Assembly: GCA_037481655.1 (NCBI GenBank)
Contig: JBBFLF010000004.1
Location: 62,001 to 126,000 of the forward strand
Reading direction: 5' to 3'
DNA length: 64,000 nucleotides
From: Desulfobaccales bacterium
GTDB taxonomy: Bacteria; Desulfobacterota; Desulfobaccia; Desulfobaccales; 0-14-0-80-60-11
Under the pieces are notes generated by a model that was given only the letters and a program-made list of their open reading frames with translations, searched no databases and was not told the origin of the DNA. Position numbers and translations under genes: made by a program. Numbering within the stretch: position 1 is the first letter of the stretch; every line of letters starts with the position of its first letter. Positions 8,365 through 60,505 of this stretch are shown here, piece by piece.

Positions 8365-8375
8365 CTGGATTTTCC

Positions 8376-10752: not shown

Positions 10753-10756
10753 AAAC

Positions 10757-10783: not shown

Positions 10784-10797
10784 GACCACAATGCGCC

Positions 10798-23491: not shown

Positions 23492-23506
23492 TGGCACGCC
23501 CCTTGC
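23492..23506 (+). promoter_or_regulatory. sigma-54 promoter of the GcvH-like/hdrA/mvhD/fdhA operon
   Basis: TGGCACG followed by TTGCT with exactly 10 bp between the GG and GC dinucleotides, a near-perfect -24/-12 element. The predicted start near 23518 leaves a 44-nt leader before the ATG at 23562. An NtrC-type activator is encoded at the end of the same gene cluster. Confidence 0.85.
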
Positions 23507-31026: not shown

Positions 31027-31055
31027 TAGGATATCCCTGACGGGGACTGAAATGA

Positions 31056-31094
31056 CACCGGGGGAAAAGGGCCACGGCACCGTTTCCCCCGGTG
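31056..31094 (+). terminator. strong hairpin after fdhA
   Basis: Perfect 12-bp arms CACCGGGGGAAA / TTTCCCCCGGTG with a 15-nt loop, 30 bp after the fdhA stop and 15 bp before the preferred kinase start. It lacks a T-run, so it may act as a partial terminator or an mRNA-stabilising element that sets kinase levels below those of the enzyme genes. Confidence 0.6.
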
Positions 31095-31108
31095 GGTGGA
31101 CATGGACG

Positions 31109-33403: not shown

Positions 33404-34739
33404 GAAGATCCGCATTCTGGTGGTGGATGACGAGCCCAGCATCCGGGAATCCTTGAGCGGCTGGCTGAAGCGCTCCGGCTACGAGGTGGATACCGCCCCG
33501 GACGGGCCCACGGCCTTGGCCAAATGCGAGGAGAGCCACTTCGACATCGCCCTCATCGACGTCAAGATGCCGGAGATGGACGGCATCACCCTCCTCAAAA
33601 AACTGAAGGAGCTGGACCCGGACACCTCCGTGCTCATGATGACCGCCCACGGGGACATTCAGGACGCGGTGCAGGCCATCAAGGCGGGAGCCTACGACTA
33701 CCTCCTCAAGCCCTTCGAGCTGGAGGAGCTCACCTTCACCATCAACAAGATGGTGGAGATGCAGACCCTGGCCATGGAGAACCTCATCCTCAAGGACCGC
33801 CTGGCCTCCATGACCCGCTTTGAGAACCTGGTGGGCCAGTCCCCGCCCATGCTCAAGCTGTATGAGACCATCCTGGATGTGGCCAAGACCGACGTCACCG
33901 TGCTCATCACCGGAGAGACGGGCACCGGCAAAGAGCTGGTGGCCCGGGCCATCCACGCCCAGAGTCCCCGCTGTTATTCGCCCTTCATCGCCATCAACTG
34001 CGGCGCCTTCACCGAGCATCTGCTGGAAAGCGAACTCTTCGGCCATGAGAAGGGCGCCTTCACCGACGCCAAATACACCAAGAAAGGCCGCCTGGAGATG
34101 GCCAACGGCGGCACCCTCTTCCTGGATGAAGTGGGCGACATCTCCATGAAGATGCAGATTGACCTCCTGCGTGTCCTGGAGACCCACGAGTTCACCCGGG
34201 TGGGGGGCACCACCGTCTTAAAAAGCGACTTTCGGGTCATCGCCGCCACCAACCAGGACCTGCAGGAGGCCATTAAGCGCAAGACCTTCCGCCAGGACCT
34301 CTACTACCGCCTCAACGTGGTGCACATCCATGTGCCGCCCTTAAGGGAGCGGGTGGAGGACATTCCGCTTTTGGCCCAGCATTTCCTGAGGCGCTACGCC
34401 ACGGAGATGAAAAAGAAGATCGATTCCATCCACCCCAAGGCCCTGGAGGCCATGCAGCGCTATCCCTGGCCGGGGAACGTCAGGGAGCTGGAAAACGCCA
34501 TCGAGCGGGCGGTGGTCATCGGCAAGGGCCGGCAGATCAAGCTCTCGGACCTGCCTTTCCTCGAAGCGGGGGAAGAGGGACCGGATTACACCGACCTGTC
34601 CCTGGAGGAGATGGAACGGCGCCACATCGCCCGGGTGCTGGCCGCCAAGGGCAGGAATCTCTCCCATGTCGCCCGGGTCCTGCGCATCAACCGCTCCACC
34701 TTATACGAAAAAATTAAGAAATACGGCCTCTCCACCTAA
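33390..34739 (+). CDS. NtrC-family sigma-54 response regulator
   Basis: 449 residues. The receiver domain (1-120) has VVDDEP, the phosphoacceptor Asp in LIDVKMPEMDG, and LKPFELEEL. The AAA+ domain (about 140-370) has GETGTGKELVARAIH and GTLFLDEVGDISMKMQ. The sigma-54 contact loop reads GAFTDA rather than GAFTGA, a known natural variant. A Fis-type helix-turn-helix (HVARVLRINRSTLYEKIKKY) ends the protein. It is translationally coupled to the kinase. The likely targets are the sigma-54 promoters at 23492 and perhaps 36722 and 54363; this is inference from proximity. Confidence 0.95.
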   Translation: MLPHKKIRILVVDDEPSIRESLSGWLKRSGYEVDTAPDGPTALAKCEESHFDIALIDVKMPEMDGITLLKKLKELDPDTSVLMMTAHGDIQDAVQAIKAGAYDYLLKPFELEELTFTINKMVEMQTLAMENLILKDRLASMTRFENLVGQSPPMLKLYETILDVAKTDVTVLITGETGTGKELVARAIHAQSPRCYSPFIAINCGAFTEHLLESELFGHEKGAFTDAKYTKKGRLEMANGGTLFLDEVGDISMKMQIDLLRVLETHEFTRVGGTTVLKSDFRVIAATNQDLQEAIKRKTFRQDLYYRLNVVHIHVPPLRERVEDIPLLAQHFLRRYATEMKKKIDSIHPKALEAMQRYPWPGNVRELENAIERAVVIGKGRQIKLSDLPFLEAGEEGPDYTDLSLEEMERRHIARVLAAKGRNLSHVARVLRINRSTLYEKIKKYGLST

Positions 34740-35103: not shown

Positions 35104-35964
35104 TCACTTGCTGTGGAGGAACTCCTTGACTAGGCGGTCCCAGCCCAGCTGGGGATAGTTGCCGATGAGGTCATCCACCAGGGTGCCCCCGGAGGGCAGG
35201 GTGAGCCCCGCCTCGGACTGCAGCAGGTTGAGAAGCCGGTGGGTCTCGTGCTCAATCCAGGCCACGTTGCATTGCCCGAAGAGCATCTTCTCCAGGTCGG
35301 TCTTGAGATCCGAGGGGGAGACGAGGAAGAGCCAGCCGGCGCCGTAGGGGTCGTCGTGCACCAGGGCGGGGTGTTCCTTAACCGCCGGGTTGACCGCCTC
35401 GATGAAGCCGCAGATAGGGGAGAGGATGGGGGCTTCCTTTCCCTGGCGCACCAGGGTAAAGAGGGGATGGTCGGCCCTGACCTGGTCCCCCACCTCGGGG
35501 AGGCGCAGCTCTTCGGGGACGCCGAAGAGGTGCACGCAGAAATCATCCAGGCCCACCCGCACCCGGCCGGCGTTCTCCAGGGCCACCCAGGTGTGGCCCC
35601 GGTGGAGGAAGCTGGAAGTGGGCACCGCCACCCCCATAATCTCCTGCACCCGGGGGCGCTCCGGCGCCAGGAAGAATTCAAACTGCTCCTCCAGAAGCTC
35701 ATCGAAGGAGCACTCATGGCAGAGACGGGTCATCATCAGGCGGCACTGCTGCTCCCCGAAGCGCTGGCGCATCTTCTCCTCCCAGGAGGACACCGGTTTG
35801 GGATGCCCCTTGCGCTTGGCGATCTGGGCGGCGGCCGCGGCGGTGAGAGCCCGGTCCAGCTCACAGTGCTCGCACTCAAAATCCTTGTCGCAGATCTTGT
35901 AATCGATGACGCCGGCCTCCATCCAGATGCACGGCTTCTTTTCGTCGAGGATGCCCTGAGTCAT
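35104..35964 (-). CDS. GcvH-like protein C with N-terminal cysteine domain
   Basis: 286 residues. The first 50 contain a cysteine-rich motif (PCIWMEAGVIDYKICDKDF, then CEHCELDRAL), and a helical region with CHECSFDELL follows. Residues 108-286 are the GcvH-like domain (HRGHTWVALE, VGLDDFCVHLFG, DDPYGAGWLFLV, LPSGGTLVDDLIGNYPQLGW). At the lipoylation site the sequence is RQGKEAPI, where paralogues A and B have RQGHKAP, so the lysine is displaced by one residue. Lipoylation is therefore doubtful. It follows paralogue B in the same direction after 77 bp and is probably co-transcribed from the sigma-54 promoter at 36722. Confidence 0.75.
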   Translation of the reverse strand: MTQGILDEKKPCIWMEAGVIDYKICDKDFECEHCELDRALTAAAAAQIAKRKGHPKPVSSWEEKMRQRFGEQQCRLMMTRLCHECSFDELLEEQFEFFLAPERPRVQEIMGVAVPTSSFLHRGHTWVALENAGRVRVGLDDFCVHLFGVPEELRLPEVGDQVRADHPLFTLVRQGKEAPILSPICGFIEAVNPAVKEHPALVHDDPYGAGWLFLVSPSDLKTDLEKMLFGQCNVAWIEHETHRLLNLLQSEAGLTLPSGGTLVDDLIGNYPQLGWDRLVKEFLHSK

Positions 35965-36041: not shown

Positions 36042-36683
36042 TCATTGGCCGGCCCTCCAGGTGCGTTTGTCCCACTGCTCCCAGCCCTCGAAGCCCCGGC
36101 GGGAGGAGGGCGCCTGCAGGTGCCGGGTGAAAAAGCCCCGCACCAGCCGCCGCCAGCCCAGCACCGGGAAGTGGCCGTAGACATCGTCCACGATGCTGCC
36201 GCCGGAGGGCAGGGTGTAACCGGCCTTGTCGCTCAGCATCTCCAGGAGGCGGTGGGTCTCGTCCTCGATCCAGGCGACGGTCTCAGGCCCGGTCACCAGG
36301 TTCTCCAGGTTGTGCTTCAGGTTGGTGGGTTCCATGAGATAGAGCCAGCCCTCGCCATAAGGGTCATCATGGATGAGGCGGGGGTTCTTCATGGCCTTCT
36401 CGTTCATCGCCACCACCGTGCCATCCACCGGCGCCACAAAGGAGGCTTTGTGCCCCTGGCGCAGCAGGGCCATAAAGATGTGGTCCTGGTAGTAGACCTT
36501 GCCCGGCTCCGGGGGCTGGAGGGCCTCCGCCGGCCCCAGGATCTTCTGGGAGAAGTCGTCCAACCCCACCCGGACCTGGTCCGGTTTCTCCAGCTTTACC
36601 CAGGCGTGGCCCCGATGCAGGTAGTAATCTTCGGTGGGCACCGTGAACCCGAAGACCTGGGCCATTTTGGTCTGGCTTTTCAT
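36042..36683 (-). CDS. GcvH-like lipoyl-domain protein B
   Basis: 213 residues. The ATG at 36683 follows AAGGAGG by eight bases. The domain is the same as in protein A: YYLHRGHAWVKLEKPDQVRV, GLDDFSQKILGPAEAL, ALLRQGHKASFVAPVDG with a candidate lipoyl lysine, HDDPYGEGWLYLMEPTNL, LPSGGSIVDDVYGHFPVLGW. The C-terminal tail is short and basic/aromatic. It lacks the helical extension of A and the cysteine domain of C. It is transcribed away from hmcA behind its own sigma-54 promoter, so it is likely to be controlled with the Hdr/Fdh operon. Confidence 0.8.
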   Translation of the reverse strand: MKSQTKMAQVFGFTVPTEDYYLHRGHAWVKLEKPDQVRVGLDDFSQKILGPAEALQPPEPGKVYYQDHIFMALLRQGHKASFVAPVDGTVVAMNEKAMKNPRLIHDDPYGEGWLYLMEPTNLKHNLENLVTGPETVAWIEDETHRLLEMLSDKAGYTLPSGGSIVDDVYGHFPVLGWRRLVRGFFTRHLQAPSSRRGFEGWEQWDKRTWRAGQ

Positions 36684-37267
36684 GGCTGTGGTCCTCCTTG
36701 TGTGAGTTGCCTGTCTAAGAAGCAATGAGCGTGCCAAGGGTGCATAAATATAACTATTTGATATTATTAATAAAAAAATTGGTCTCTCCCGACGCCGCCG
36801 GCGCCTGTGGGAAAAGCCCACAGCCCCCAGGTGCTCTCAGGGTAACCTCTTTAAATTATTTATTATTTTGGCTGGCCCCTTGGCGTTGCAAATTCCCACG
36901 CCCCGCCGGCCCTCGGCCGCGGCCTCCCCTGCGGCCCGCTCCCGGGGTCCTGCTTCTAGCTGTGTGCACTTGTTCCGCAAGGGATTCCCTGCCGGCCTCC
37001 TGCCGGTTAACTGGAGTGTACAGATATCCGACACAATCGCAGGGATCATAATTTTTATAACCTGCTTATTTCATTATAAATTTATATATATTTGGCGGAG
37101 AAAACCGACATCTCGCCTTCCTTCCCCTAAAAATTTTTTTGGACATGGGCTGGATTTTGACATAAGATTGATTGTGCATCTTTTCACAGAAAGCCATTGT
37201 TCATTAGGCGGCAGGGGACCGAGCCAGGTGCGCTGCCGCCCGAGACCCGTGCCAAGGACCTGAGACC
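36684..37267. other. 584-bp divergent control region between GcvH-like B and hmcA
   Basis: Contains the sigma-54 promoter of the minus-strand pair (36722-36736), an AT-rich segment (37045-37145), and the sequence TTGACATAAGAT near 37159 that could serve as a -35 box for hmcA, although no good -10 follows. Two half-sites resembling the inverted repeat before the Hdr/Fdh operon (ATCCGACA near 37026, ACCGACA near 37104) are present. No gene seen. Confidence 0.5.
36722..36736 (-). promoter_or_regulatory. sigma-54 promoter of GcvH-like B and C
   Basis: On the minus strand TTGGCACG, then CTCA, then TTGCT, with 10 bp between the GG (36735-36734) and GC (36723-36722). The predicted start near 36710 leaves about 27 nt before the ATG, including the ribosome site. 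Confidence 0.85.
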
Positions 37268-47905: not shown

Positions 47906-48001
47906 GGTGATTGTTCTCACAAACCTCGGGCCGGCGGCGGCGACAATCCCACCTGCCGGGTGTGATTGCAGCCTCCCTGGCTGACCGGCCCAGCGGCTCA
48001 T

Positions 48002-49660
48002 ATGGACAAAGGTCACCTGCAGAAACTCCGGTGGGAGATCGTCGCCACCATCATCGGTTTTTCCGTGGTACCCCTGCTGCTGTTGGGGGCGGTGTTCTAC
48101 CACGAATTCAGCTCCTCCTACCATGCTAAGGTGCGGGAGAGCCTGCGCACCCTGGTGGACAACCGCCGGGGGGCGCTGGACCTGTTTCTGGAGGAGCGGG
48201 TTTCCCAGCTGGTCACCCTGGCCCACACCCACACCCTGGAGACCATCAGTGAGGAGAATTATCTCAACAAGGTCTTCAACATCATGCAAGCCCGCTCCCG
48301 CTCTTACATGGACCTGGGGGTCATCGACGAGGACGGCAACCACCTGGCCTATGTGGGACCTTATTACAGTCTTCTCAAGGGGGTGAATTACAAAGGGGAG
48401 GAGTGGTTCAACGCCGTCATGGCCCAAGGCATCCACATCAGCGATGTCTTTCTGGGCTTCCGCAAGGTGCCTCACTTCATCATTGCGGTCTTGGTCCGGG
48501 AACGGCAACGCATCTGGATCCTGAGGGCCACCATCGACTCCGACATCATCGAAAACATTGTCCGGGCTGCCTGGATCGGCAAGAAGGGGGACGCCTTCAT
48601 CATCAACCGGGAGAACATCCTGCAGACCTCCCCGCGGTTCAGCGGCACCCTTTTGGGCCCGCCCGCGACGCCGGACTTCTCCAAGGCCGTGGGCACCCTG
48701 GTGGAAGAGCTCAGCCACGCCGGGGAAAAATCCCTCTATGGGGCGGCACCCCTCTCCTCCCATCGCCGCTGGGTCATCGTGGTTCAGGAGGATCCCGCCG
48801 AACAGTTAAGCCCTCTTCTTAGCGCCCGCCTCCTGGGGCTGGTCATCGGCCTGTTTGGCATCGCCCTCATCGTCACCGGTGCCTGGTTCAGCAGCCAGGC
48901 CATGATGCGGGAACTCTTGGAGATGGAGCGCAAAAAAGCCGCCAGCGAGCATATGGCCATCCAAAGCAGCAAGATGGCGGCCTTGGGAAAGATGGCGGCC
49001 GGCATCGCCCACGAAATCAACAATCCCCTGGCGGTCATCGGGGAGAAGGCGGGCTGGATCAAGGACCTCCTCAAGGAGGAGGACATCTCCAAGAGCCCCA
49101 ATTTCCAGGAATTCGCCGACGCGGTGGCCAAAATCGAGTATCATGTGCTCCGGGCCAAGAAAATCACCCATCGCCTCTTAAGTTTCGGGCGGCGCATGGA
49201 GCCGGTCAAAGAGCAGGTGGACGTCAACCAGGTGCTGGATGAGACCATCGACTTCCTGGAAAATGAGGCCCGTTATCGCTCCATTGACATCCAGACGGAC
49301 CTGGCCCCGGATCTGCCCACCATTACCAGCGATGCCTCCCAGTTGCAGCAGGTGTTTTTGAACATCATCAACAATGCCATTGACGCCATCGGCAAAAACG
49401 GCCTCATTCAGATCAAGACCCGTTATATGCCCAAACATGCCCAGATCGCCATTGAAATCAGCGACAACGGTCCGGGCATTCCCAAGGAATATCTGGACAA
49501 AATCTTTGACCCCTTTTTCACCACCAAAGAGGTGGGCAAGGGCACGGGGTTGGGACTTTCCATCTCTTACAGCATCGTGGAGAATCTGGGGGGACGCATG
49601 ATGGTGGCCAGCCAGGAGGGCGAGGGCACCACCTTCACCATCTACCTCCCGGCAAAATGA
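48002..49660 (+). CDS. membrane sensor histidine kinase with Cache domain
   Basis: 552 residues. Transmembrane helix 1 ([20 protein letters not shown]) and helix 2 ([19 protein letters not shown] near 285) enclose a ~240-residue extracytoplasmic region of dCache type ([40 protein letters not shown]). The kinase core has [35 protein letters not shown] and [13 protein letters not shown]. The ligand is unknown. The ATG at 48002 is chosen; 47966 is an in-frame alternative. Its receiver follows at 49742. Confidence 0.9.
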
Positions 49661-49741
49661 GGCGGGCAGGTTCTCCGGTGGCATCTGGTGCCCCTGGAGG
49701 AGCAACCGGCCGGCCACGCCGGGCGGCAGGCGAGGCGGATC

Positions 49742-50131
49742 ATGGAAAGATTCAAGGTTCTGGTGGTGGATGATGAAGATGATTTCCGGGAGACCATCGT
49801 CAAGCGGCTCCGGGGCCGCAACCTGGACACCACCGGGGTTGCCAGCGGCGAAGAGGCGCTGAAAGTCATGGCTCAGGAGAGCTTCGATGTGGTGGTGCTG
49901 GATGTGCGCATGCCCGGCATGGACGGCATCGAGGCCTTGAAAGAAATGAAAAAGCGCTGGCCTTTGACCGAGGTCATCATGCTCACCGGCCACGCCTCGG
50001 TGGAGTCCGGCATCCAGGGCATGCAGTTGGGGGCCTTCGATTACGTCATGAAGCCGGTCCCCCTGGATGAACTGCTGGACAAGATGCGGCAGGCCTATGA
50101 GCGCAAGAAGATTCAGGAGGGGAAATTTTAA
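49742..50131 (+). CDS. single-domain response regulator (receiver 1)
   Basis: 129 residues, receiver only: VVDDEDDFRE, phosphoacceptor in VVLDVRMPGMDG, the conserved Thr in MLTGHAS and the Lys in VMKPVPLDE. There is no DNA-binding or enzymatic domain, so output must go through another protein or a phosphorelay. It lies 81 bp after the Cache kinase and 50 bp before the second kinase. Confidence 0.9.
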   Translation: MERFKVLVVDDEDDFRETIVKRLRGRNLDTTGVASGEEALKVMAQESFDVVVLDVRMPGMDGIEALKEMKKRWPLTEVIMLTGHASVESGIQGMQLGAFDYVMKPVPLDELLDKMRQAYERKKIQEGKF

Positions 50132-50181: not shown

Positions 50182-51123
50182 ATGTCGCCCAGCCGTTCCC
50201 CCGGGGCCGAGCGCTGGTGGCTGCCGTGGCTGGCGCCCACCCTGACCCTTTTGGCCGGGCTGCTCTGCTGGTGGGGGGGATATTGGCTCTGCGGGGTGGC
50301 CGCCGTGGGGCTCAGCGCCCTGGGATTCTATGGGGTCCACACCCTCAGCGTCCGGCTCACTCAGGCGGAAAATTCCCGCCAGCTCATGGACGAGCGCCTG
50401 CTCACCACCCAGAAGCTGGCGGCCATCGGGGAGCTGGCGGCGGGGATTTCCCATGAAATCAACAACCCCCTGGCCATCATCCGGCAGGAGGCGGAATGGC
50501 TGGAAGAACTCCTGAAAGGCGCCCGCTTCCAGGACCAGGCCCAGCTGCTGGAATTCCGGGAATCCCTTAAAGAAATTGTCCTGGCAGTGGAGCGGGCCCG
50601 GGAGGTCACCGGCAAGGTCCTGGAGCTGGCCCGGGAACGCCAGCCGGTCATCCAGAAGCTGGACCTCAACCGCCTCCTGGAGGATATGGCCCGGTTGGTG
50701 GAGCACGAAGCCAGAAAGAAAAATATCGTCATCGAGCGGCGGTTGGCGCCGGACCTGCCGCCCTTGGAGTCGGACGGGCCGCTCTTGCGCCAGGCGGTGC
50801 TCAACCTCCTCACCAATGCCTATCAGGCCATTGAGGGGGGCGGCACCATCACCATCACCAGCAGTTGGGCCGGCCCGGACCATGTGAAGATCGCCATCCG
50901 GGACACCGGCGTGGGCATTCCCCCGGAGATGCTGGACAAGATCTTTCTGCCTTTTTACACCACCAAACCGCCGGGCACCGGCACCGGCCTGGGCCTGGCC
51001 ATCACCCAGACCATCATCCACCGGCTGGGAGGCACCATCAGCGTGGCCAGCCAGCCGAAACACGGCACCACCTTTACCATCGTGCTCCCCTTGAGCTGGG
51101 AGCCGCAGGAACAGAAGGCATGA
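50182..51123 (+). CDS. histidine kinase with two N-terminal membrane helices
   Basis: 313 residues. Two adjacent helices (WLAPTLTLLAGLLCWWGGYW and LCGVAAVGLSALGFYGVHTL) have almost no loop between them, so there is no extracytoplasmic sensor domain. A coiled linker leads to HisKA ([20 protein letters not shown]) and the ATPase domain (NLLTNAYQAIEGGG, RDTGVGIPPEML, GTGLGLAITQTII). Close in sequence to the core of the upstream kinase. It overlaps the next receiver gene as ATGA. Confidence 0.9.
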   Translation: MSPSRSPGAERWWLPWLAPTLTLLAGLLCWWGGYWLCGVAAVGLSALGFYGVHTLSVRLTQAENSRQLMDERLLTTQKLAAIGELAAGISHEINNPLAIIRQEAEWLEELLKGARFQDQAQLLEFRESLKEIVLAVERAREVTGKVLELARERQPVIQKLDLNRLLEDMARLVEHEARKKNIVIERRLAPDLPPLESDGPLLRQAVLNLLTNAYQAIEGGGTITITSSWAGPDHVKIAIRDTGVGIPPEMLDKIFLPFYTTKPPGTGTGLGLAITQTIIHRLGGTISVASQPKHGTTFTIVLPLSWEPQEQKA

Positions 51124-51545
51124 ATAACGCAATCCGGGTCCTGGTGGTGGATGATGAGGCCCGCTTCCGCACCACGTTGGCCAAGATGCTGCGCTCCCGG
51201 GGGTTGGTGGTGGAGGCGGTGGGAAGCGGCGAGGAATGCCTGACGGAACTGGATGACCGCCCTTATGATGTGGTGCTCCTGGACATTCGCATGCCCGGCC
51301 TGGGCGGTCTCGAGACCCTGCGCCTCCTGAAGGAGCGGCATCCGGAGGTGGAGGTGGTGATGCTCAGCGGCCACGCCAATCTGGATACCGCCATTGAGCT
51401 TTTGAAACTGGGGGCTTACGACTATCTGGTGAAGCCCTGCCCCCTGGAAGAGGTCCTGCTGAAGATTGAGAACGCCTTTGAAAAGAAGCAGGAACTGGAG
51501 CGCATCAAGGCCCAGGCCGCCCGCCGGGGGGAGACCGGGGACTGA
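51120..51545 (+). CDS. single-domain response regulator (receiver 2)
   Basis: 141 residues: VVDDEARFRTTL, phosphoacceptor in VLLDIRMPGLGG, LSGHAN with Ser in place of the usual Thr, and LVKPCPLEEV. A C-terminal charged helix (EKKQELERIKAQAARRGE) follows and may mediate partner binding. No output domain. It ends six bases before the convergent PEP-synthase-like gene. Confidence 0.9.
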   Translation: MNNAIRVLVVDDEARFRTTLAKMLRSRGLVVEAVGSGEECLTELDDRPYDVVLLDIRMPGLGGLETLRLLKERHPEVEVVMLSGHANLDTAIELLKLGAYDYLVKPCPLEEVLLKIENAFEKKQELERIKAQAARRGETGD

Positions 51546-51551: not shown

Positions 51552-54179
51552 TCAGGTCTCCGGGCCGGTGGGGGCTTCCGTCGGAGGCCGGAAAAGCTCC
51601 GGCTCCAGAGAGTAATTGCCTGCCAGAAAATTGCTCGCCACCAGCTCCACGCTCGCCTCGCTGGCCATGAGCATGTCCATCTGCCGGGTGTAGATGAGCA
51701 GGCGGCCCAGCTCCTCCAGCTTTTCCTGAATTACGCTGCAGTCATACTTGGCCAGGCGGGCGTCCAGGCGGTCTCCCGTCACCTCCACGGTGAAATGCAG
51801 GGCCCTGAGGATGCGGGCGATGGCCCGGATGCGGCGCTGCCGGCGTTCCTCGTCCGCCGCCCCCCCTTTAAAAGCGAAGGTGATGTAGTTCTTGTTGAGG
51901 GTGGCCCCGCAGTAGGCGTCCAGGACGCTGAAGTGATACCCCACCCGGGAGCTGAAATTCATATACTTGTCGGAAATGATGGCGTAGGACTTTTCGCCGA
52001 AGCGGTCGTCCAGGGGCGGCGCCGACAGCCACTGCTCCCGCATCACCGACAGGAGCCCGGAGAACTCCACCGGACGGGGCTCCAGGGCCTTGAGGCGGGG
52101 ATCCAGCATGCCCCGGAGGAGGGCGGCGAAGGGCACGGAGATCACCTCCTCGGGGGTCACCCGATTGCTGGCGGTTTCCCGCCGGCGCAATCCCCCTCCC
52201 AGGTCGATGAGATACAGGTCCAAGGGCAGAGGCGCCTCCAGCTTCAGGGCGCCGGTGCCCCGTTCCGCCGCCAGATCGCTGATCTGGAACATCTCCCGAT
52301 AGGAGTATTCATGCACCAGCCGGGCTATATCGTGCAGGGTGCGACAGTGGGCCGGGGCAAAGGTCTCGGCCCGGGGATCCAACAGGTTCAGGGGCACGAT
52401 CAAGTCCGCCACCCGGCGCAGCACCTGGTAGATGGGGGTGTCCTGCATGTGGGGGCGGCGTTCCTCCCTAAGGGCGAGAAGCTCCGGCACCCGGCCTAGG
52501 TAGACCCGGCCGGTGAGGGCATCCACGGTGACCTCCTGGCCCGGCGGCAGGTCCCGGGTCGCGGTCTTGGTGTCCAGGAGACTGGGGACCCCGAATTCCC
52601 GGGCCACCACCGCCATATGGCCGGCCACACTGCCGTGGTCGGTGATCACCGCCTGGGCCCTGGCCATGACCACCACAAACTTGGGGGAGGACTGCCGGGC
52701 CACCAGCACCCCGCCCTCGGGGAAGTGCAGGAGGTCCTCGTCCGTCTCCACCCGGACCACCGGCCCCACCCCCACTCCAGGGCAGGCGATCTGGCCGCCC
52801 TCCAGGAGCACCGTGGCCCCTGGGATGGGCGGGCTCTCCGCCGCCGCCCCCACCCGGGCCTGCACCTTCAGGGGCCGGGTTTGCAGGATAAAGAGGCGCC
52901 CTTGCTCATCCAGGGCCCACTCAACATCCTGGGGCCCCTGGTAGTGCTCCTCCAGGCGGATGGCCCAGGAGGCCAGGGTGCGGACCTGCTCCTCGGTGAG
53001 GCAGGGGGCGGCCTGGCGCTCCGGCGGCACCGCCTCCTCCTTAAGCCCGCCCTCGGGCGCAGCCGCCAAAGCCACCGGTTTCACCGCGATCTCCTGCTTG
53101 ACCACCGGCAGCTCCGGCTCTTTGGCCACCACAAAGGTGTCGGGGGACAGGGTGCCGTCCACGGCATAGGGCCCCAGACCCCAGACCCCCACAATCACCA
53201 CCCGGTCCTGGAGGGGGTCAAAGGGGTGCCGGGAGTACATGACGCCGCTGGCCCGAGCCGGCACCATGGCCAGGCAGCACACCGCCATGGCCGCGTCCTC
53301 GTCCCGGATACCCTGATAGAGCCGATATGTGACGGCCCGAGGAGTGAAGAGGCTGGCCACCACCTCCCGCCAGGCCGCCGCCAGGCGCTCCGGAGGCTCA
53401 TTTAAGCAGGTGAGGTATTGGCCGGCAAAGGAGAGCTCGCTGTCCTCCCCCAGGGCGCTGGAGCGCAGGGAGACCCGGGGCTGCCCGCCCACCTCCCGGG
53501 CCAGTTCCCGGTAGGCCTCCTCCAGGGCGCCGGTGAGGTCGGCCGGGAGCGGCGCCGTCAGGAGGAGCTCCCGGATGGAGCGGCAGGCCTCTTCGATGCT
53601 TTCGGGGTCCTGGGGGTCAATCTCCATTTTGCGCTTGTTGATCTCATCCCACAGGTCCTGGTGCTCGAGGAAACGGTGAAAGGCCCGGGTGGTGATGGCA
53701 AACCCGGGGGGCACCGGCAGACCCACCCGGTTTTTCACCTCCCCCAGGTTGGCGCTTTTCCCCCCCACCCAATCCACCTGGTCCCGGGTGACGGCGGCCA
53801 AAGGCAGGGTGTAGGCCGGGGCCTCCTCTTCCCGGCTGGGCCCCAGCTCCGCCTTGATGGCTTCGTGGATCCGGTCCAGGATGGGATAGAGCATGGGATA
53901 CTTGTGGCCGGAGAGGACGTCCAGGCTCTTGATCATCCGAAAGGCGTGGAAGGCCGCCCGGCTGGCCCGGGAGCGGATGTAGGACATGCCAAAGACCTGG
54001 TGCCCTTTCAGCTTTTCCTCCAGGTCGGAGATGATGGCCAATATCTGGGAGTTGGAGTCCAGCAGGTCCCGAAAGCAGGTGTATTTGAAGCGAAAGACCT
54101 CGGAGACATCCCGGACCGGCTGGCGCCGGGCCTTCCACCAGCGGTAAATGTTGCGGAAGAGATTGAGAGTCTCCACCAT
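51552..54179 (-). CDS. PEP-synthase-like phosphotransferase without TIM barrel, copy 1
   Basis: 875 residues. A helical N-terminal region of about 130 residues precedes a PPDK/PEP-synthase ATP-grasp domain (VGGKSANLGEVKNRVGLPVP, RSSALGEDSELSFAGQY, LEEHYQGPQDVEWALDE) and a phosphohistidine domain with TDHGSVAGHMAVVAREFG, whose His is the expected phosphocarrier. The PEP/pyruvate TIM barrel is missing. In its place is an unassigned ~280-residue module (CRTLHDIARLVHEYSYREMF, NFSSRVGYHFSVLDA, TFAFKGGAADEERRQRR). It should therefore phosphorylate something other than pyruvate, as rifampicin phosphotransferase does. The same length and architecture occur at 57878. Confidence 0.8.
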   Translation of the reverse strand: MVETLNLFRNIYRWWKARRQPVRDVSEVFRFKYTCFRDLLDSNSQILAIISDLEEKLKGHQVFGMSYIRSRASRAAFHAFRMIKSLDVLSGHKYPMLYPILDRIHEAIKAELGPSREEEAPAYTLPLAAVTRDQVDWVGGKSANLGEVKNRVGLPVPPGFAITTRAFHRFLEHQDLWDEINKRKMEIDPQDPESIEEACRSIRELLLTAPLPADLTGALEEAYRELAREVGGQPRVSLRSSALGEDSELSFAGQYLTCLNEPPERLAAAWREVVASLFTPRAVTYRLYQGIRDEDAAMAVCCLAMVPARASGVMYSRHPFDPLQDRVVIVGVWGLGPYAVDGTLSPDTFVVAKEPELPVVKQEIAVKPVALAAAPEGGLKEEAVPPERQAAPCLTEEQVRTLASWAIRLEEHYQGPQDVEWALDEQGRLFILQTRPLKVQARVGAAAESPPIPGATVLLEGGQIACPGVGVGPVVRVETDEDLLHFPEGGVLVARQSSPKFVVVMARAQAVITDHGSVAGHMAVVAREFGVPSLLDTKTATRDLPPGQEVTVDALTGRVYLGRVPELLALREERRPHMQDTPIYQVLRRVADLIVPLNLLDPRAETFAPAHCRTLHDIARLVHEYSYREMFQISDLAAERGTGALKLEAPLPLDLYLIDLGGGLRRRETASNRVTPEEVISVPFAALLRGMLDPRLKALEPRPVEFSGLLSVMREQWLSAPPLDDRFGEKSYAIISDKYMNFSSRVGYHFSVLDAYCGATLNKNYITFAFKGGAADEERRQRRIRAIARILRALHFTVEVTGDRLDARLAKYDCSVIQEKLEELGRLLIYTRQMDMLMASEASVELVASNFLAGNYSLEPELFRPPTEAPTGPET

Positions 54180-54263
54180 GGCCACTCGCCTCTGCTTTCA
54201 CATTGTATACCATTTTTATCCTCACGGCTGGTGTCGCCTTGTCATCTGCCGCGCTCCCCAAAC

Positions 54264-54280
54264 TTTTACACCCTGTAAAA
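54264..54280. promoter_or_regulatory. 17-bp perfect palindrome between divergent genes
   Basis: TTTTACA-CCC-TGTAAAA, 84 bp upstream of PEP-synthase-like copy 1 and about 85 bp upstream of the -24 box of the uspA promoter. A good candidate operator or activator site; the protein is unknown. Confidence 0.5.
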
Positions 54281-54362
54281 AATCTTGACAGCTTTTCCCC
54301 CTCCAGCCGGAGACCCCGGCCCGGTTGCCCTTTTCTGGCCTGAGGTCTGGCCGGGCCGTCGC

Positions 54363-54377
54363 TGGCACGGCCATTGC
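54363..54377 (+). promoter_or_regulatory. sigma-54 promoter of the uspA/TSUP gene set
   Basis: TGGCACGGCCATTGC with 10 bp between GG (54364-54365) and GC (54376-54377). The predicted start near 54389 gives a 30-nt leader containing AAAAGGAGG. Confidence 0.85.
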
Positions 54378-54418
54378 CTTAGGAAGGAGCAGCAGGAATT
54401 TGCCAAAAGGAGGTGGGT

Positions 54419-54832
54419 ATGAAGGTCTTGGTTCCCGTGGACGGCTCGCAGGCGTCCCTGGATGCCGCCCGCCGGGCGGCGGAAATGGCGGAGAAGGAAG
54501 GCGCCCAGGTGACCCTGATGACCGTGGCTTATTTCGTCCAGGACATCCTCGCCGAGATGCCTCCCAACATCCAGGACAAGCTGGAGCGGGAGGGCCAAAG
54601 GATCCTGGAGCAGGCCAAGGAGGTCTTCACCGGCAAAAACCTTCCGGTGGAGACGGTGCTGGAGGTGGGCACCGTACCGGCCAACAACATCATCCGCAAA
54701 GCCCGGGAGGGCAATTTCGACCGCATCATCATGGGGGCCACCGGCAAGACCGGGCTGGACCAGACCCTGCTGGGCAGCACCGCCGCCAAGGTGGTGGCCC
54801 AGGCCCCCTGTGAAGTGGTGGTGGTGCGGTGA
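54419..54832 (+). CDS. universal stress protein UspA family
   Basis: 137 residues. MKVLVPVDGSQASLDAARRA at the N-terminus and GATGKTGLDQTLLGSTAAKV near the C-terminus form the ATP-binding type of Usp fold (G-x2-G-x9-G-S/T). Such proteins respond to nutrient, redox or energy stress. It is the first gene behind a sigma-54 promoter and precedes a membrane transport set. The ATG at 54419 is placed seven bases after AAAAGGAGG. Confidence 0.92.
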   Translation: MKVLVPVDGSQASLDAARRAAEMAEKEGAQVTLMTVAYFVQDILAEMPPNIQDKLEREGQRILEQAKEVFTGKNLPVETVLEVGTVPANNIIRKAREGNFDRIIMGATGKTGLDQTLLGSTAAKVVAQAPCEVVVVR

Positions 54833-54858
54833 TTTTCTGTGACAGGAGGAGAAAAGAC

Positions 54859-55152
54859 ATGCAGCGTCTGAGAAGGATTCTGGCCGGGGCGGCCCTGTGG
54901 GTGGGGCTGCTGCCGGGCTTGGCGTGGGCCGCGGGCGAAAAGGCCGCGCCCCTGGTGATTGTGGCCGACACCCGCAAACTCTCGGGCTGGGCCGCGTATT
55001 GGGCCAACCTATACAATGAAAGCCACTTCTACTTCACCTTGGCCACCGTCATCATCATCCCGGTTATCGGGCTGATCTTCGGAGTGCTGGCCGACCTCAT
55101 CATGGGCCACATCGGCATTGACCTGAAATCCCGGGAGCTGGCGGAGCATTGA
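54859..55152 (+). CDS. small membrane protein preceding TSUP transporter
   Basis: 97 residues. The signal-like N-terminus (ILAGAALWVGLLPGLAWAAG) is followed by a short extracytoplasmic region and one helix (FTLATVIIIPVIGLIFGVLA). The tail GHIGIDLKSRELAEH faces the cytoplasm. No named family recognised. It sits 31 bp before the TSUP gene, which suggests an accessory subunit. Ribosome site GGAGGAGAAAAG. Confidence 0.75.
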   Translation: MQRLRRILAGAALWVGLLPGLAWAAGEKAAPLVIVADTRKLSGWAAYWANLYNESHFYFTLATVIIIPVIGLIFGVLADLIMGHIGIDLKSRELAEH

Positions 55153-55183
55153 TCTTCGCTAAGGTCGTCAGGAGGAACATCAT

Positions 55184-56242
55184 ATGGATTTCTTTTATGT
55201 TCTCATGCCCATTGCAGGGGTGAAGATCTTCTGGCCGGGGCTCATCATCCTGGGTCTCGGCGTGGGGATCATCGGCGGCTTCTTCGGCATGGGGGGCGCC
55301 TGGATGGTGACCCCGGGCCTTAACATCCTGGGCTTCCCCATGGCCTTCGCCATCGGCACCGACATCGCCCACATGGCGGGCAAATCCCTCATCTCCACCA
55401 TGCGCCATGGCAAGTTCGGCAATGTGGATTACAAGCTGGGCATCGTCATGCTGGTGGGCACCGTGATCGGTTTTGAGGTGGGCGCCCAGATGGTCATGTG
55501 GCTGGAGCGCATCGGCCAGGTGGAGAAATATGTGCGCTATCTCTATCTCATCCTTCTGGCCCTCATCGCCTGGATGGTCTTTGCCGATGTGGCCAAGCGG
55601 AAGCGCAAGGAGCGGGAGGCGGCGGCCAAAGGCGTGACGGTGGACAAACTGGCCACCGGCATTGAGTGGCACAAGGCCATTCATCGCATCAAGATCCCGC
55701 CCATGGTGCATTTCAAAGAGGCCCAGATCTACATCTCCTTCTGGATGCCGGTCCTGGTGAGCTTCGCCACCGGCTGGCTGGCGGGGATTCTGGGCATCGG
55801 CGGCGGTCTCATCCGCATGCCCGCCCTCATCTACTTCATCGGCTGCCCCACCCACGTGGCGGTGGGCACCGACCTCTTTGAGGTGATGATCTCCGGCCTG
55901 TATGGCACCGCCACCTATACCTACAAGGGGCGCACGGAGCTGGTGGCCGCCATCATCATGCTCATCGGCGCCTCGGTGGGGGCCCAGATCGGCACCGTGG
56001 CCACCAAGTACATCAAAGGCTACGGCATCCGCATTGCCTTCGGCCTGGCGGTGGTGGGCTGCGGCATCTCCATCCTGTTGAAGCTCATGGCCAAGTGGTT
56101 CCCGAACCAGGCCGCCCTGTATGACAATGCCGCCACGGTGCTTATCCTCGGCCTGGTGGCAGCCATGTCTCTCTACATCTTTGTGCGCATGGTTCAGGGA
56201 GCCCGGCAGGAAATCGCCATGAAAAAGGCGGCCGGGAAGTGA
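55184..56242 (+). CDS. TSUP (TauE/SafE) family transporter
   Basis: 352 residues with eight or more helices. The duplicated TSUP motifs are GGFFGMGGAWMVTPGLNILG near 30 and GILGIGGGLIRMPALIYFIG near 205, each followed by an A-I/V-G-T-D segment (AIGTDIAHM, AVGTDLFEV). A cytoplasmic loop of about 60 charged residues separates the halves. TSUP proteins move sulfite, sulfonates or organic anions; in a sulfur-metabolising cell sulfite or sulfate is likely but not proven. AGGAGG lies eight bases before the ATG. Confidence 0.9.
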   Translation: MDFFYVLMPIAGVKIFWPGLIILGLGVGIIGGFFGMGGAWMVTPGLNILGFPMAFAIGTDIAHMAGKSLISTMRHGKFGNVDYKLGIVMLVGTVIGFEVGAQMVMWLERIGQVEKYVRYLYLILLALIAWMVFADVAKRKRKEREAAAKGVTVDKLATGIEWHKAIHRIKIPPMVHFKEAQIYISFWMPVLVSFATGWLAGILGIGGGLIRMPALIYFIGCPTHVAVGTDLFEVMISGLYGTATYTYKGRTELVAAIIMLIGASVGAQIGTVATKYIKGYGIRIAFGLAVVGCGISILLKLMAKWFPNQAALYDNAATVLILGLVAAMSLYIFVRMVQGARQEIAMKKAAGK

Positions 56243-56277
56243 TGAGATCCTTTCAGCTAGACAAGGAGAACAGTCCG

Positions 56278-56865
56278 ATGAGGAAACGCACGTACTGGTG
56301 GCTTCTGCCCGCCCTCCTTCTCATCCTGGTCTGCGGCTGTGAGCTGGGCCAGGTGGACCAGGGCCGGGTTATCGCCTTCGACCCGCAAAAAGGGATCGTC
56401 ACGCTCATTCAGGACAAGAGGGCAGAGCCGGGCAACCCGGACTACAACACTCTGCCGCCCCACACCTACAAGATCCCTGATGATCCGGCGGAAATGGGGC
56501 CGGTGCCGGTGGCCGGCAAACGACTCAAACTGGATGTCCAGGCCAAGGAGATCGTGATCTTTGACGACGCCACCCAAAACTTCAAGACCATCCCCTTCAC
56601 CATCATTGACATGCGGACGGGGATCGGCCGGGATCATCCCCTGGTGAAGGGCAAGACCTTCCCCATCATCGACCGGGAGAAGAAGACCATCACCGAATAC
56701 TCCTCCAGGCAACGGTTGCTCATCACCTTCACGGTGGCGGATGAATATTTCAATCTGCCCCCGGAGACCTGGGAGGCCGGAGACGAGGTGCGCATCTACT
56801 ACAAGGAGCCGGGCAAGGCTCTGAGGCTGATGAACATCACCCGCACCGACATCTACAAGAAGTAA
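56278..56865 (+). CDS. exported lipoprotein (DUF4881-like)
   Basis: 195 residues. The lipobox is LLLILVCGC with the lipidated Cys near residue 20. The mature protein is soluble and beta-rich with VDQGRVIAFDPQKGIVTLIQ at its start and DEVRIYYKEPGKALRLMNIT at its end. It resembles the lipoproteins annotated DUF4881 in Desulfobacterota, from memory only. It follows the TSUP gene by 36 bp. An imperfect hairpin with a TTTCA loop (about 56881-56910) comes after the stop. Confidence 0.7.
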   Translation: MRKRTYWWLLPALLLILVCGCELGQVDQGRVIAFDPQKGIVTLIQDKRAEPGNPDYNTLPPHTYKIPDDPAEMGPVPVAGKRLKLDVQAKEIVIFDDATQNFKTIPFTIIDMRTGIGRDHPLVKGKTFPIIDREKKTITEYSSRQRLLITFTVADEYFNLPPETWEAGDEVRIYYKEPGKALRLMNITRTDIYKK

Positions 56866-56988
56866 CCTCCTGACATGGTGGGGAGGGGGCACTTTCAGTG
56901 CCCTCCCCCGCCTCTCCTGTGCTACAATGTGTAACACCGCATTGCGGCGGCCACCTGAAATGGACGGCAAGAATCAGCAACGTCGCTC

Positions 56989-57825
56989 ATGACTCTGACC
57001 CAGGCCCACTTCCTGCGCACCTGGCTGGGACGGTTCGGCGCCCTGTGCTGCCTGCTGGCCCTGGCCGCGGTGCTGGACGGCATCATCACCAAGTTCCGGG
57101 AGCCCTTTAACGTCCTGGCAGTCCTCCCCGGCGAGTCCCCGGCCATCAACGGCCCCACCGCGGAGCAGGTGAAGACGCCGGCGGACCTGGAGTGGCTGGC
57201 GGACTCCCCGGAGATCACCCTCCAGGTGGAAAAGATCCACTCCGGTTATTTTCTGGGGGGGAGGATGTGGCAGGGCACCCTCCAGGTGGGCCGGGGGATT
57301 GCCCCGGGAAAGCACGTCCTGGCGGTGCGGCCCCGGCCTTTGGACCCGGCCACCCCTACGGAAGCGGTGCTTTTCCGCATCAATGTCTACGCCACGGAGG
57401 CGGACCGGGCCGCGGCCTCCCTGTCTATGGTGGAGCGGCTCCTGGGGATCTCGCCCTGGTGGGCGGCGCTCCTTCCCCTTCCCGGCATCCTGCTGGCCTT
57501 CGGCCTCACCTTCCTCCTCTCCTGGCGCATTGACAGCCTGATGGCAGAGGAGGGCAAGAGCGAAATCTACCGGGTGACCCGCAAAGAGGGGTATCTGGAA
57601 GTGGGTTTCGGCCTGGGCACGGCCCACGGGGTCCGCGCCGGGGATCTTCTGCCGGTGTATGACCTGGAGGGACGGCAGACCGCCACGGTGGAGGTCCAGG
57701 AGGCCACCGCCACCGATGCCGTGGGCCGGGTGGGAGCCGGGGAGTTGGTGCAGCCCGGCTTTGTGGTCCACCGGACCCGGCAGGCGCGGGAAAAACAGCC
57801 TCTGGGCCTGGCCTCCGCCTCGTGA
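56989..57825 (+). CDS. membrane protein with extracytoplasmic and C-terminal domains
   Basis: 278 residues, family not recognised. Helix 1 (FGALCCLLALAAVLDGIITK) and helix 2 (WAALLPLPGILLAFGLTFLL near 165-184) enclose a ~125-residue extracytoplasmic segment rich in beta strands (GTLQVGRGIAPGKHVLAV). The cytoplasmic C-terminus of ~95 residues (EIYRVTRKEGYLEVGFGLG, VEVQEATATDAVGRVGAGEL) looks like a small beta domain. It precedes the second PEP-synthase-like gene by 52 bp, so the two may function together. Confidence 0.65.
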   Translation: MTLTQAHFLRTWLGRFGALCCLLALAAVLDGIITKFREPFNVLAVLPGESPAINGPTAEQVKTPADLEWLADSPEITLQVEKIHSGYFLGGRMWQGTLQVGRGIAPGKHVLAVRPRPLDPATPTEAVLFRINVYATEADRAAASLSMVERLLGISPWWAALLPLPGILLAFGLTFLLSWRIDSLMAEEGKSEIYRVTRKEGYLEVGFGLGTAHGVRAGDLLPVYDLEGRQTATVEVQEATATDAVGRVGAGELVQPGFVVHRTRQAREKQPLGLASAS

Positions 57826-57877: not shown

Positions 57878-60505
57878 ATGGGCGGCTTTCTGACACGCCT
57901 GAAAAAACTCTTCTCCCGCCCCCCGGCCAAGCCGCCGGCCGCCGCCATGGAGGACCTGCGGCGCCTCTTCCGGGCCAAGTTCCATGCCTTCAAGGTCCTT
58001 TTGAACGCCAACAACACCGCCCTGGCCCTGATGGCGGAGATGGAGACCACCCTCCACGGCCAGCGCAGTTTCGGCATGACCTTTGTCCGGGGCCATGCCA
58101 CCGCCGTCTGCGTCAACGTCTATAACATCATCCGCTCCCTCAATGATCTGGCCGGCAACAAATATGCCGCCTTGTACCCGGTGTTTGAGGATCTGCGGGA
58201 GAAGATCGAGGCAGTCCTGAACCGGGAAAGCCCCCCCGCCATCCAGGAGCTGGTGCTGCCCCTGGAGCAGGTGAGCAAGGAGATGGCTGATGGCGTGGGC
58301 AGCAAGATGGCCAACCTGGGGGAAATCACCCGGGCCCTGCCGGACGTGGCCGTGCCCCCGGGCTTTGTCATCACTGCCGCGGCCTATGATCTCTTCCTGC
58401 GGCACAACGGCCTCAAGGAGGAGATCAACCGGCGCCTTCAGGCCATGGAGCAGGAAGGCCTGGATGACCTCTACCGCCTGAGCTCCGAAATCCAGATGGA
58501 GATCATCCGGGGCGAGGTGCCCCCGGAGCTGGCCGCCGCCATCCAGGAGGCCTACGACAAGCTGGCGGCCCGCCTGGGACAGGCGCCCAAGGTGGCCATG
58601 CGCTCCAGCGCCATCGGGGAAGATGCGGTGGAGACCTCCTTTGCCGGCCAATACCGCTCGGAGCTCAATGTCAGCCCGGACAACCTGCTGTCGGCCTACA
58701 AAGAGATTCTGGCCAGCAAATACGCCCTCACCGCCCTCAATTACCGCCTGCACAAGGGCCTTAGGGACGAAGATGTGCCCATGTGCGTGGGCTGCATGGC
58801 CATGGTGGCGGCAGCGGCAGGGGGGGTGATGTACAGCCGGGACCCCACGGACATCCGCCGCCGGGTGGTCCTCATCAACAGCGTCCACGGGCTGGCCAAG
58901 GCGGTGGTGGACGGCACCGTCACCCCGGATGTCTGGGAGATCGACCCGGACACCTGGACCGTGCGGCGCCGGGAAATCGCCCATAAACCGAGGCGGGCGG
59001 TCAGCCTGCCGCAAGAGGGTGTGGTCCTGGAGGACAACCCCGCCGCGGATGAGCCTTCCCTCACTGAAGAGCAGGCCCTCAATCTGGCCCGCCTGGCAGT
59101 GCGGCTGGAAGAGTATTTTCAGGCCCCCCAGGACGTGGAGTGGTCCATCGATGCGGCGGGGCAGATTTTTATCCTGCAGAGCCGGCCGCTGCAACAGCTC
59201 ACGGCCGGCGGCAGCGAGCGGCCGGCCCCGGAAGGCATCACCCATCGGGTCCTCTTCCGGGGCGGGGAGCGCGCCAGCCCGGGGGTGGCTGCGGGTCCCG
59301 TCTGTCTCGTCAAAAATAACCTGGACGTGCTGCAGTTCCCGGAAGGGGGGGTGCTGGTGACCGCCTTCGCCCACCCGGCCTGGGCCACCCTCCTGCCCCG
59401 GGCGGTGGCGGTGGTCACCGACCGGGGGGGCATCACGGGGCATTTGGCCAATGTGGCCCGGGAATTCCGCATCCCCGCGCTCTTTAACACCTTTGAGGCC
59501 ACCCGCCTCCTGCCCCCGGGCCTGGAGGTGACGGTGGATGCCGACGGCCACACCATCTACGAAGGCCGGGTGGAGGAGCTCCTGGTCCATGCGGCCCCCA
59601 AGAAGGGGGTGATGACCGGCACCCCGGTCTATCAGACCCTGGAAGAGGTCATGACCTACATCACCCCTTTGTATCTCACCGACCCGGAAAGCCCCGCCTT
59701 CCGGCCGCAGAACTGCAAAACGCTCCATGACATCACCCGCTTCGCCCATGAAGTGGCGGTGCGGGAGATGTTTAGCATCGAGGAGGACCGGGCCCTCACC
59801 CGGCATTTCATCAAACGCCTGAAGACCGATCTGCCCATGGAGTGGCTGGTGCTTAACCTGGAGGACGGCTTCAAGGAGGAGGTGCCGGGCAAGGAGGTCA
59901 CCCTGGATCAGATCGCCTCCGTCCCCATGCTGGCCCTGTGGGAGGGGATCAGCGCCGTACCCTGGGAAGGCCCGCCCCCGGTGGATACCGGCGGCTTTCT
60001 CTCCATCGTCATGGGCGCGGCCACCGACCCCCACCTGGCCACCGCCGGAGAACAGACATTATATGGCAATGTGAACTATTTCATGATTTCTCGCTCTTTC
60101 TGCAACCTCACCTCCCGTTTGGGGTTCCACTTCTCCACCGTGGAGGCCCTCACCGGCGACGAGCCCTATGAAAATTACCTGCGCTTTACCTTCAAGGGCG
60201 GGGCCGCGGACCAGACCCGGCGGGTGCTTCGGGCCCAGTTTGTGGCCAAAATCTTGGAACATTACGACTTCAAGGTGGAGGTGCGGGAAGACGCCCTTTT
60301 TGCCCGCCTGGAGGGGGAGGCCCTGCCCTACATGCTCACCCGGCTCAAGGTCCTGGGCTATGTGACCATCCACACCCGGCAGCTGGACATGATCATGCTC
60401 AACCCCGACGAGGTGGCCCGCTACCGGGCCAAAATCCTGGCGGATCTGGAGAGACTCACCCACTCGGGCGCCTCCCTCCCGCAGGGCGGCAGTTCCTCGG
60501 ACTGA
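57878..60505 (+). CDS. PEP-synthase-like phosphotransferase without TIM barrel, copy 2
   Basis: 875 residues, the same length as the copy at 51552. Domains in order: a helical region (1-130), the ATP-grasp domain (GVGSKMANLGEITRALPDVA, RSSAIGEDAVETSFAGQYRS, QAPQDVEWSIDA-like sequence), a phosphohistidine domain (TDRGGITGHLANVAREF), then the unassigned C-terminal module (CKTLHDITRFAHEVAVREMF, NLTSRLGFHFSTVEAL, TFKGGAADQTRRVLR). The module motifs are shared with copy 1 and replace the PEP-binding TIM barrel. Part of the plus-strand set that starts with uspA, though hairpins and a gap upstream leave room for a separate promoter. Confidence 0.8.
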   Translation: MGGFLTRLKKLFSRPPAKPPAAAMEDLRRLFRAKFHAFKVLLNANNTALALMAEMETTLHGQRSFGMTFVRGHATAVCVNVYNIIRSLNDLAGNKYAALYPVFEDLREKIEAVLNRESPPAIQELVLPLEQVSKEMADGVGSKMANLGEITRALPDVAVPPGFVITAAAYDLFLRHNGLKEEINRRLQAMEQEGLDDLYRLSSEIQMEIIRGEVPPELAAAIQEAYDKLAARLGQAPKVAMRSSAIGEDAVETSFAGQYRSELNVSPDNLLSAYKEILASKYALTALNYRLHKGLRDEDVPMCVGCMAMVAAAAGGVMYSRDPTDIRRRVVLINSVHGLAKAVVDGTVTPDVWEIDPDTWTVRRREIAHKPRRAVSLPQEGVVLEDNPAADEPSLTEEQALNLARLAVRLEEYFQAPQDVEWSIDAAGQIFILQSRPLQQLTAGGSERPAPEGITHRVLFRGGERASPGVAAGPVCLVKNNLDVLQFPEGGVLVTAFAHPAWATLLPRAVAVVTDRGGITGHLANVAREFRIPALFNTFEATRLLPPGLEVTVDADGHTIYEGRVEELLVHAAPKKGVMTGTPVYQTLEEVMTYITPLYLTDPESPAFRPQNCKTLHDITRFAHEVAVREMFSIEEDRALTRHFIKRLKTDLPMEWLVLNLEDGFKEEVPGKEVTLDQIASVPMLALWEGISAVPWEGPPPVDTGGFLSIVMGAATDPHLATAGEQTLYGNVNYFMISRSFCNLTSRLGFHFSTVEALTGDEPYENYLRFTFKGGAADQTRRVLRAQFVAKILEHYDFKVEVREDALFARLEGEALPYMLTRLKVLGYVTIHTRQLDMIMLNPDEVARYRAKILADLERLTHSGASLPQGGSSSD

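Follow-up and report, generated by a model that had tools for sequence, protein, structure and literature searches.

Within a 64,000-nt stretch of a Desulfobaccales genome (contig JBBFLF010000004.1 of assembly GCA_037481655.1, positions 62,001 to 126,000; hereafter the window), positions 54363-56865 hold a compact transport operon. Its sequence and open reading frames (ORFs) place, behind a -24/-12 site, genes for a universal stress protein (Usp), a 97-aa small membrane protein (here SML), a TSUP-family permease, and a lipoprotein of family DUF4881. We consider it probable that this is a sigma-54 operon for the permease and its dedicated partner SML, together with Usp and the lipoprotein, that it is switched by an NtrC-type regulator encoded on contig C19 of the same genome and acting through an upstream palindrome, and that a sulfur oxyanion is the most likely cargo.

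The four genes are separated by gaps of only 26, 31, and 35 nt, and each has a strong GGAGG-like ribosome site. This layout, with its short gaps and strong ribosome sites, had been proposed in a first-pass annotation made from the sequence, and it was confirmed here. The Usp gene was assigned the ATG start (Table 1), and the GTG start given by the ORF caller lies two codons further upstream. A scan of positions 54150-57100 found no U-tailed (intrinsic) terminator, including after the lipoprotein gene, where a strong hairpin without a U-tract occurs. The operon may extend into the next gene, G5.

A conserved promoter and an upstream palindrome

On its own, a -24/-12 match carries little weight in a G+C-rich window. 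The pattern TGGCAC-N5-TTGC, with at most one mismatch, occurs five times in the 64 kb against 5.9 expected, as would suit a chance match in DNA whose genes are driven by other promoters. Comparative evidence instead carries the promoter claim. For each locus we took the highest-scoring site ahead of Usp or SML, using our own weights on a -24/-12 consensus (maximum 22.5, threshold 20), and loci with less than 400 nt of upstream sequence were excluded from the count. The consensus used is similar to the tGGcacg / tTGCt given in the consulted part of a published account (PMC4641369). A score of at least 20 was reached by 20 of 21 window-type orthologous loci (the window's own included), compared with 3% of 4700 random windows. 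The threshold was also reached by 47 of 73 named loci, which come from a broader scan described below; because 14 of the 73 share contigs with the window-type set, the independent count is 33 of 59. The promoter is credible because it is conserved across orthologous operons, and rpoN is present in the window's genome.

The second element, TTTTACACCCTGTAAAA, is a palindrome of the form TTTACA-N3-TGTAAA that was found by listing all 7-bp inverted repeats upstream of the operon; relatives were then scanned for it at up to one mismatch. It is a new element of this operon, and no printed account of such a site was found in the literature, although the motif itself could not be searched for. At the same tolerance it is the sole match in the window, and 100 shuffles gave none. 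Genome-wide, the shorter pattern TTTAC-N5-GTAAA matches once, but its reversed control matches twice, and so uniqueness alone proves little.

Recurrence and spacing are more telling. The palindrome lies upstream in 18 of the 21 window-type loci (17 within the 450-nt search, plus that of G027 just beyond that range), and the three loci without it (L077, L091, and L095) are all outside the window's order. Its distance to the -24 box is 98-100 bp in the window's genus, 109-110 bp in the sister family, and 120-123 bp in the other relatives; over all loci the distances fall into the classes 98-100, 109-111, and 118-124 bp, which amounts to steps of about 11 bp, or roughly one helical turn. In front of 11 of the 17 second-copy SML-TSUP operons, the same palindrome precedes a promoter by 111-124 bp. 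Both elements are kept in the second copy by most of the family, whereas that of the window's genus (L056, L060) shows neither. Across 12 genomes hand-picked from 59 relatives, TTTACA-N3-TGTAAA gave 27 sites versus one for the reversed control, and 14 of 18 retrieved sites have a promoter scoring at least 20 at 109-123 bp. With promoter and palindrome conserved at phased spacing, a chance origin of the -24/-12 site is nearly refuted and scarcely credible. The sigma-54 control read from the single sequence in the first-pass annotation thus gains support from relatives.

A separate promoter before the TSUP gene, which that annotation had raised as grounds for doubt, was looked for in part. No sigma-70-like promoter was found directly before the TSUP gene. 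The SML-TSUP gap in relatives is 11-126 nt (median 30), and at loci lacking Usp the sigma-54 site mostly precedes SML and not TSUP.

Two further exact TGGCAC-N5-TTGC matches were seen in the window. One (23492-23506, plus strand) lies about 70 nt 5' of an ATG at 23562 that has a good ribosome site. The other (36722-36736, minus strand) falls within a GCV_H-like ORF in its long form (36042-36821), which adjoins a second GCV_H-like ORF (35104-35964).

Table 1. Coordinates and identifying properties of the operon, its control elements, and associated genes. Positions are those of the window unless a contig is given.
Feature	Position	Strand	Properties
Putative upstream activator site	54264..54280	.	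TTTTACACCCTGTAAAA; palindrome TTTACA-N3-TGTAAA; 98 bp before -24 box
Sigma-54 promoter	54363..54378	+	TGGCACGGCCATTGCC; GG and GC ten bases apart
Usp	54419..54832	+	137 aa; PF00582, 98 bits; ATP motif G2xG9xGS, residues 106-120
SML	54859..55152	+	97 aa; NCBIfam NF040783 (DVU0150 family), 131 bits
TSUP (TauE/SafE) permease	55184..56242	+	352 aa; PF01925, 149.5 bits
DUF4881 lipoprotein	56278..56865	+	195 aa; PF16222, 277 bits
Hairpin without U-tract	56877..56912	+	3' of lipoprotein gene; -32.3 kcal/mol, z -3.7
G5, conserved membrane protein	56989..57825	+	278 aa; without Pfam family
PPDK-like protein A	51552..54185	-	divergent from operon; PF01326 and PF00391; His523 conserved
PPDK-like protein B	57878..60505	+	ATP-grasp and phosphohistidine domain; PF01326 and PF00391; phospho-accepting His kept
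HK1, histidine kinase	47966..49660	+	Cache sensor; Pfam
RR1, receiver protein	49688..50131	+	receiver motif in translation; homologs in synteny
HK2, histidine kinase	50182..51123	+	Pfam
RR2, single receiver domain	51120..51545	+	Pfam
NtrC-type response regulator	G000:C19:5235-6674		receiver, sigma-54 activator, and Fis domains; GAFTGA
Kinase beside C19 regulator	G000:C19:6690-8168		four-helix periplasmic sensor

A two-component system as the predicted switch

The regulator was identified through relatives in which it is linked to the operon. Loci L076, L078, L079, L081, L083, L089, and L094 carry, after G5, a kinase together with an NtrC-type regulator that has a GAFTGA motif (477-478 aa), and by similarity so do L105 and L121, whose contigs are those of L080 and L092. 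In the window's own genome, the best match to this linked pair is on contig C19, at 758-778 bits for the regulator and 579-622 bits for the kinase, while the other enhancer-binding proteins of the genome reach about 400 bits or less against the linked regulator. Of the 29 genomes that make up the window's two families, 25 have the NtrC gene; it is also present in G047 and, with a weaker match, in G046.

Regulator and palindrome were paired by genomic association. Palindrome sites adjoin the NtrC gene in G006, G008, G009, G013, G022, and G024, in several cases just behind it; G024 has no SML operon, and its sole palindrome site is the one at this gene. Elsewhere in G009 (L205) the palindrome precedes the HK1 operon with a promoter at 111 bp, and in G023, where SML gave no hit, it sits between two TSUP genes, with the NtrC gene and a PPDK-like gene close by (L210). 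Taken together, the sites suggest a regulon that would cover TSUP, PPDK-like, and HK1 parts.

A different kind of activator is on record for an orthologous operon. DVU0151 of Desulfovibrio vulgaris, a one-component activator with a GAFSEA motif, is listed for operon DVU0150-DVU0146 in the consulted part of PMC4641369. An activator of this type, encoded elsewhere in the genome, might also run the operon of the window. Such a gene is divergent from SML in 36 of 73 named loci, and L077 carries the GAFSEA motif printed for DVU0151. None is found near the operon in the window or its family, however, where the divergent gene is PPDK-like, and the palindrome is common to sites adjoining the NtrC-type gene. 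Moreover, G047 has a DVU0151-type gene as well as the NtrC ortholog, and its SML promoter lacks the palindrome, and therefore the two systems look distinct. With the enhancer-binding proteins of the window's genome listed by Pfam domain only, and no search aimed at DVU0151-type genes, we regard control by a DVU0151-type activator as improbable, and the predicted two-component system is the likely switch of the operon.

The window itself carries an NtrC-type activator gene (33222-34739, plus strand) that lies behind a 783-aa ORF (31052-33403) and has GAFTDA in place of GAFTGA. It is not favored as the activator because the linked regulator of relatives matches the C19 protein far better.

From the computed promoter, palindrome, spacing, linkage, family assignments, and distribution, we infer regulator binding, complex formation, cargo and direction of transport, and roles for Usp and the PPDK-like proteins as follows. 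Sigma-54 RNA polymerase would wait at the promoter until the C19 kinase senses a signal outside the cell. The C19 regulator would then bind the palindrome, about nine helical turns upstream, and trigger transcription. The products would form a membrane unit in which TSUP carries an anion and SML stabilizes or regulates it. The two PPDK-like phosphohistidine proteins and HK1-RR1-HK2-RR2 may belong to the same physiological module, and because this module is found in organisms with dissimilatory sulfite reductase, its cargo is most likely a sulfur oxyanion.

The SML-TSUP pair, its companions, and its cargo

The first-pass annotation had stated that the small protein has no known family, which was wrong. 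SML matches NF040783 over residues 2-97, well above the curated cut-off of 70 bits. Kyte-Doolittle hydropathy and alignment show an N-terminal hydrophobic stretch resembling a signal peptide (AXA motif) and a single later membrane helix at residues 64-82. The protein also has a periplasmic segment, VADTR..NLYNESH, and a C-terminal GIDLKSRELAEH.

For gene order we used the named loci, drawn from the best 80 of 179 confirmed relatives. An SML reading frame was present in 77; the other three, L138, L149, and L159, lacked an SML call and were omitted, although each has a TSUP gene. TSUP follows SML in all 77 named loci and in all 17 second-copy loci, and since duplication has not broken the pair, this argues for one unit. 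The idea of SML as a permease subunit therefore fares well, and the data suggest that SML is a constant partner of the TSUP permease. The DUF4881 lipoprotein gene comes next in 63 of 70 loci, G5 follows the lipoprotein in 54 of 59, and a PPDK-like gene is within reach in 37 of 42. Synteny makes G5 and the two PPDK-like genes part of a conserved neighborhood. In the window's genome, another TSUP gene (L190, G000:C1:52000-66000, 6599-11849) has as neighbors a kinase, a receiver, and a signal-plus-helix protein of 265 aa, but no SML-like gene.

The lipoprotein was modeled with a pLDDT of 92 as an OB-fold-like structure with weak fold matches only (lowest Foldseek E 0.22; highest VIA Z 7.9, against CusF across 71 residues). 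The likeness to CusF may reflect just a common OB arrangement. Sequence searches gave no convincing relative of solved structure for the lipoprotein or TSUP.

Usp is a less regular companion. Members of the ATP-binding Usp subgroup (PF00582) carry the motif G2xG9xG(S/T), which the Usp of the window has as GATGKTGLDQTLLGS. It was first proposed that Usp gates the permease in response to ATP or stress. The motif is intact in 52 of 55 Usp ORFs directly upstream, and three arrangements of Usp with SML-TSUP occur, each with a clade of its own: that of the upstream Usps (98/98), that of the Solidesulfovibrio type, and that of the second copies. The tree was built without other Usps, for which reason separate clades do not prove separate recruitment. 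There is also a precedent in TeaD, which goes with the ectoine transporter TeaABC in the part of PMC5549992 consulted. Nevertheless, only 32 of 73 named loci have a Usp directly upstream, so in the other 41 the permease works without a Usp in that place. Usp as an obligate gate was rejected as a general rule, and gating of any kind appears rather unlikely for this permease.

Distribution offers a clue to the cargo. NF040783 scores above cut-off in 73 of 395 genomes of the phylum, and dsrA is above cut-off in 67 of these 73 (one more at 3.7e-106) versus 188 of 395 overall (Fisher p about 2e-18, with kinship ignored; the two genome lists were matched by eye). Of the family genomes without dsrA, G069, G104, G119, and G187 are 62-80% complete, and G314 is 100% complete. 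A selection of 14 genomes with named loci was also scored: 11 have dsrA above cut-off, G411 has it split, G414 has a fragment of it, and G412 has none. A sulfur oxyanion is a plausible TSUP cargo because 67 of 73 family genomes carry dsrA. Of the sulfite or anion transport suggested in the first-pass annotation, a sulfur anion thereby gains some support, in contrast to gating by Usp.

Several observations weigh against the proposal. The dsrA link is confounded by phylogeny, since 121 dsrA genomes lack the NF040783 family; the complete genome G314 has the family without a real dsrA, and the Acidobacteria-labeled G412 has the operon without dsrA. The Pfam scan found no sulfur gene within the operon, and members of the TSUP family carry varied cargoes. 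The cargo could thus be an organic acid or a sulfonate, for example, with the dsrA link reflecting shared ancestry and habitat. This is a real contender, which we place a little short of evenly balanced. It must contend with the strong restriction to dsrA genomes (68 of 73 at E <1e-100), with the incompleteness of four of the five exceptions, and with a tie that reaches Nitrospirota- and Sterolibacterium-labeled genomes.

The same caution applies to the switch. Twenty-six of the 73 named loci, including several from Desulfobacterales and Nitrospirota, have no promoter at a score of 20. In the window's genome the regulator gene lies apart from the operon, and the C19 region showed no palindrome. 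Six relatives that gave no SML hit (G014, G017, G023, G024, G025, and G028) have the NtrC gene as well, and it therefore has other targets and is not exclusive to this operon.

In L176, from a Sterolibacterium-labeled metagenome-assembled genome (a betaproteobacterium by label), SML-TSUP-DUF4881 occurs together with dsrA above cut-off, and contamination and transfer are not distinguished there. In L131, from an Acidobacteria-labeled metagenome-assembled genome without any dsrA hit, SML-TSUP-DUF4881 lies between two PPDK-like genes.

Comparison with known systems

The PPDK-like proteins resemble phosphoenolpyruvate (PEP) synthase and PPDK in their nucleotide-binding and phosphohistidine domains, and alignment shows the phospho-accepting, catalytic His kept in 83 of 83 distinct proteins. 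They differ in that Pfam, with an E-value limit of 0.01, detects no PEP/pyruvate-binding barrel; PEP synthases in the PDB match them in sequence only as far as about residue 580. For the C-terminal domain, some 300 aa long, fold searches gave no confident match (lowest Foldseek E 0.018; highest VIA Z 7.6, across 78 residues), and it was placed in no family. The start of protein B, at about 57878, is a predicted one, as its ORF opens at 57659. In the window's genome, the second SML-TSUP operon (L056, G000:C27:2000-20000, 4593-12455) is flanked by two PPDK-like genes. A third TSUP cluster (L189, G000:C13:40000-56000, 1502-11490) comprises a kinase, an NtrC-type activator, a small membrane protein unlike SML in sequence, a TSUP gene (130.6 bits), and a PPDK-like gene, and hence the pairing of TSUP with PPDK-like genes recurs. 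It is conceivable, but a long shot, that the PPDK-like proteins use ATP to phosphorylate a transport partner or the imported anion, as a His-phosphate relay that energizes or gates SML-TSUP uptake under its own NtrC-type switch.

The permease belongs to the TSUP/TauE-SafE family by sequence (149.5 bits to PF01925, against a gathering cut-off of 32.6) and is distinctive in always having a DVU0150-type small protein beside it in the loci examined. More than 300 TSUP proteins were counted in the genomes examined in PMC5840216, in the part consulted, with functions that could not be predicted. The movement of sulfur oxyanions in dissimilatory sulfate and sulfite reducers is still poorly assigned, and this TSUP subfamily, whose small partner is constant, whose PPDK-like neighbors are steady, which is tied almost exclusively to dsrA, and for which a dedicated switch is predicted, offers a testable target. 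The TeaD-TeaABC system of Halomonas elongata likewise ties a Usp gene to transporter genes (PMC5549992, as far as consulted), but its transporter is of another family, and Usp is optional in the SML-TSUP loci.

Among the closest known counterparts is the DVU0151 regulon. In the literature found, and in the portions consulted, DVU0150, DVU0151, DVU0146, Dde_0697, and DvMF_2340 are named only in PMC4641369, and DUF4881 is mentioned nowhere. The gene set is conserved yet has received little study. Table 1 of that paper lists DVU0150-DVU0146 as sigma-54 dependent, under transmembrane transport, so sigma-54 dependence of the orthologous D. vulgaris operon is already on record. Both systems have the promoter and the small protein, and we infer the D. 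vulgaris order SML-TSUP-DUF4881-G5-receiver from L167, L168, and L174. The Desulfovibrio activator is divergent and one-component, with GAFSEA and a winged-helix-like DNA-binding end according to the same part of that source. In contrast, the system proposed for the window has an NtrC-type two-component regulator with GAFTGA, encoded by an unlinked gene, with TTTACA-N3-TGTAAA as its site and Usp leading the operon. Because the promoter is common to both lineages and a DVU0151-type gene is divergent in 36 of the 73 named loci, the activator appears to differ between them. One operon would thus have kept its sigma-54 promoter while being switched by a one-component activator in Desulfovibrio and by a predicted two-component system in the lineage of the window.

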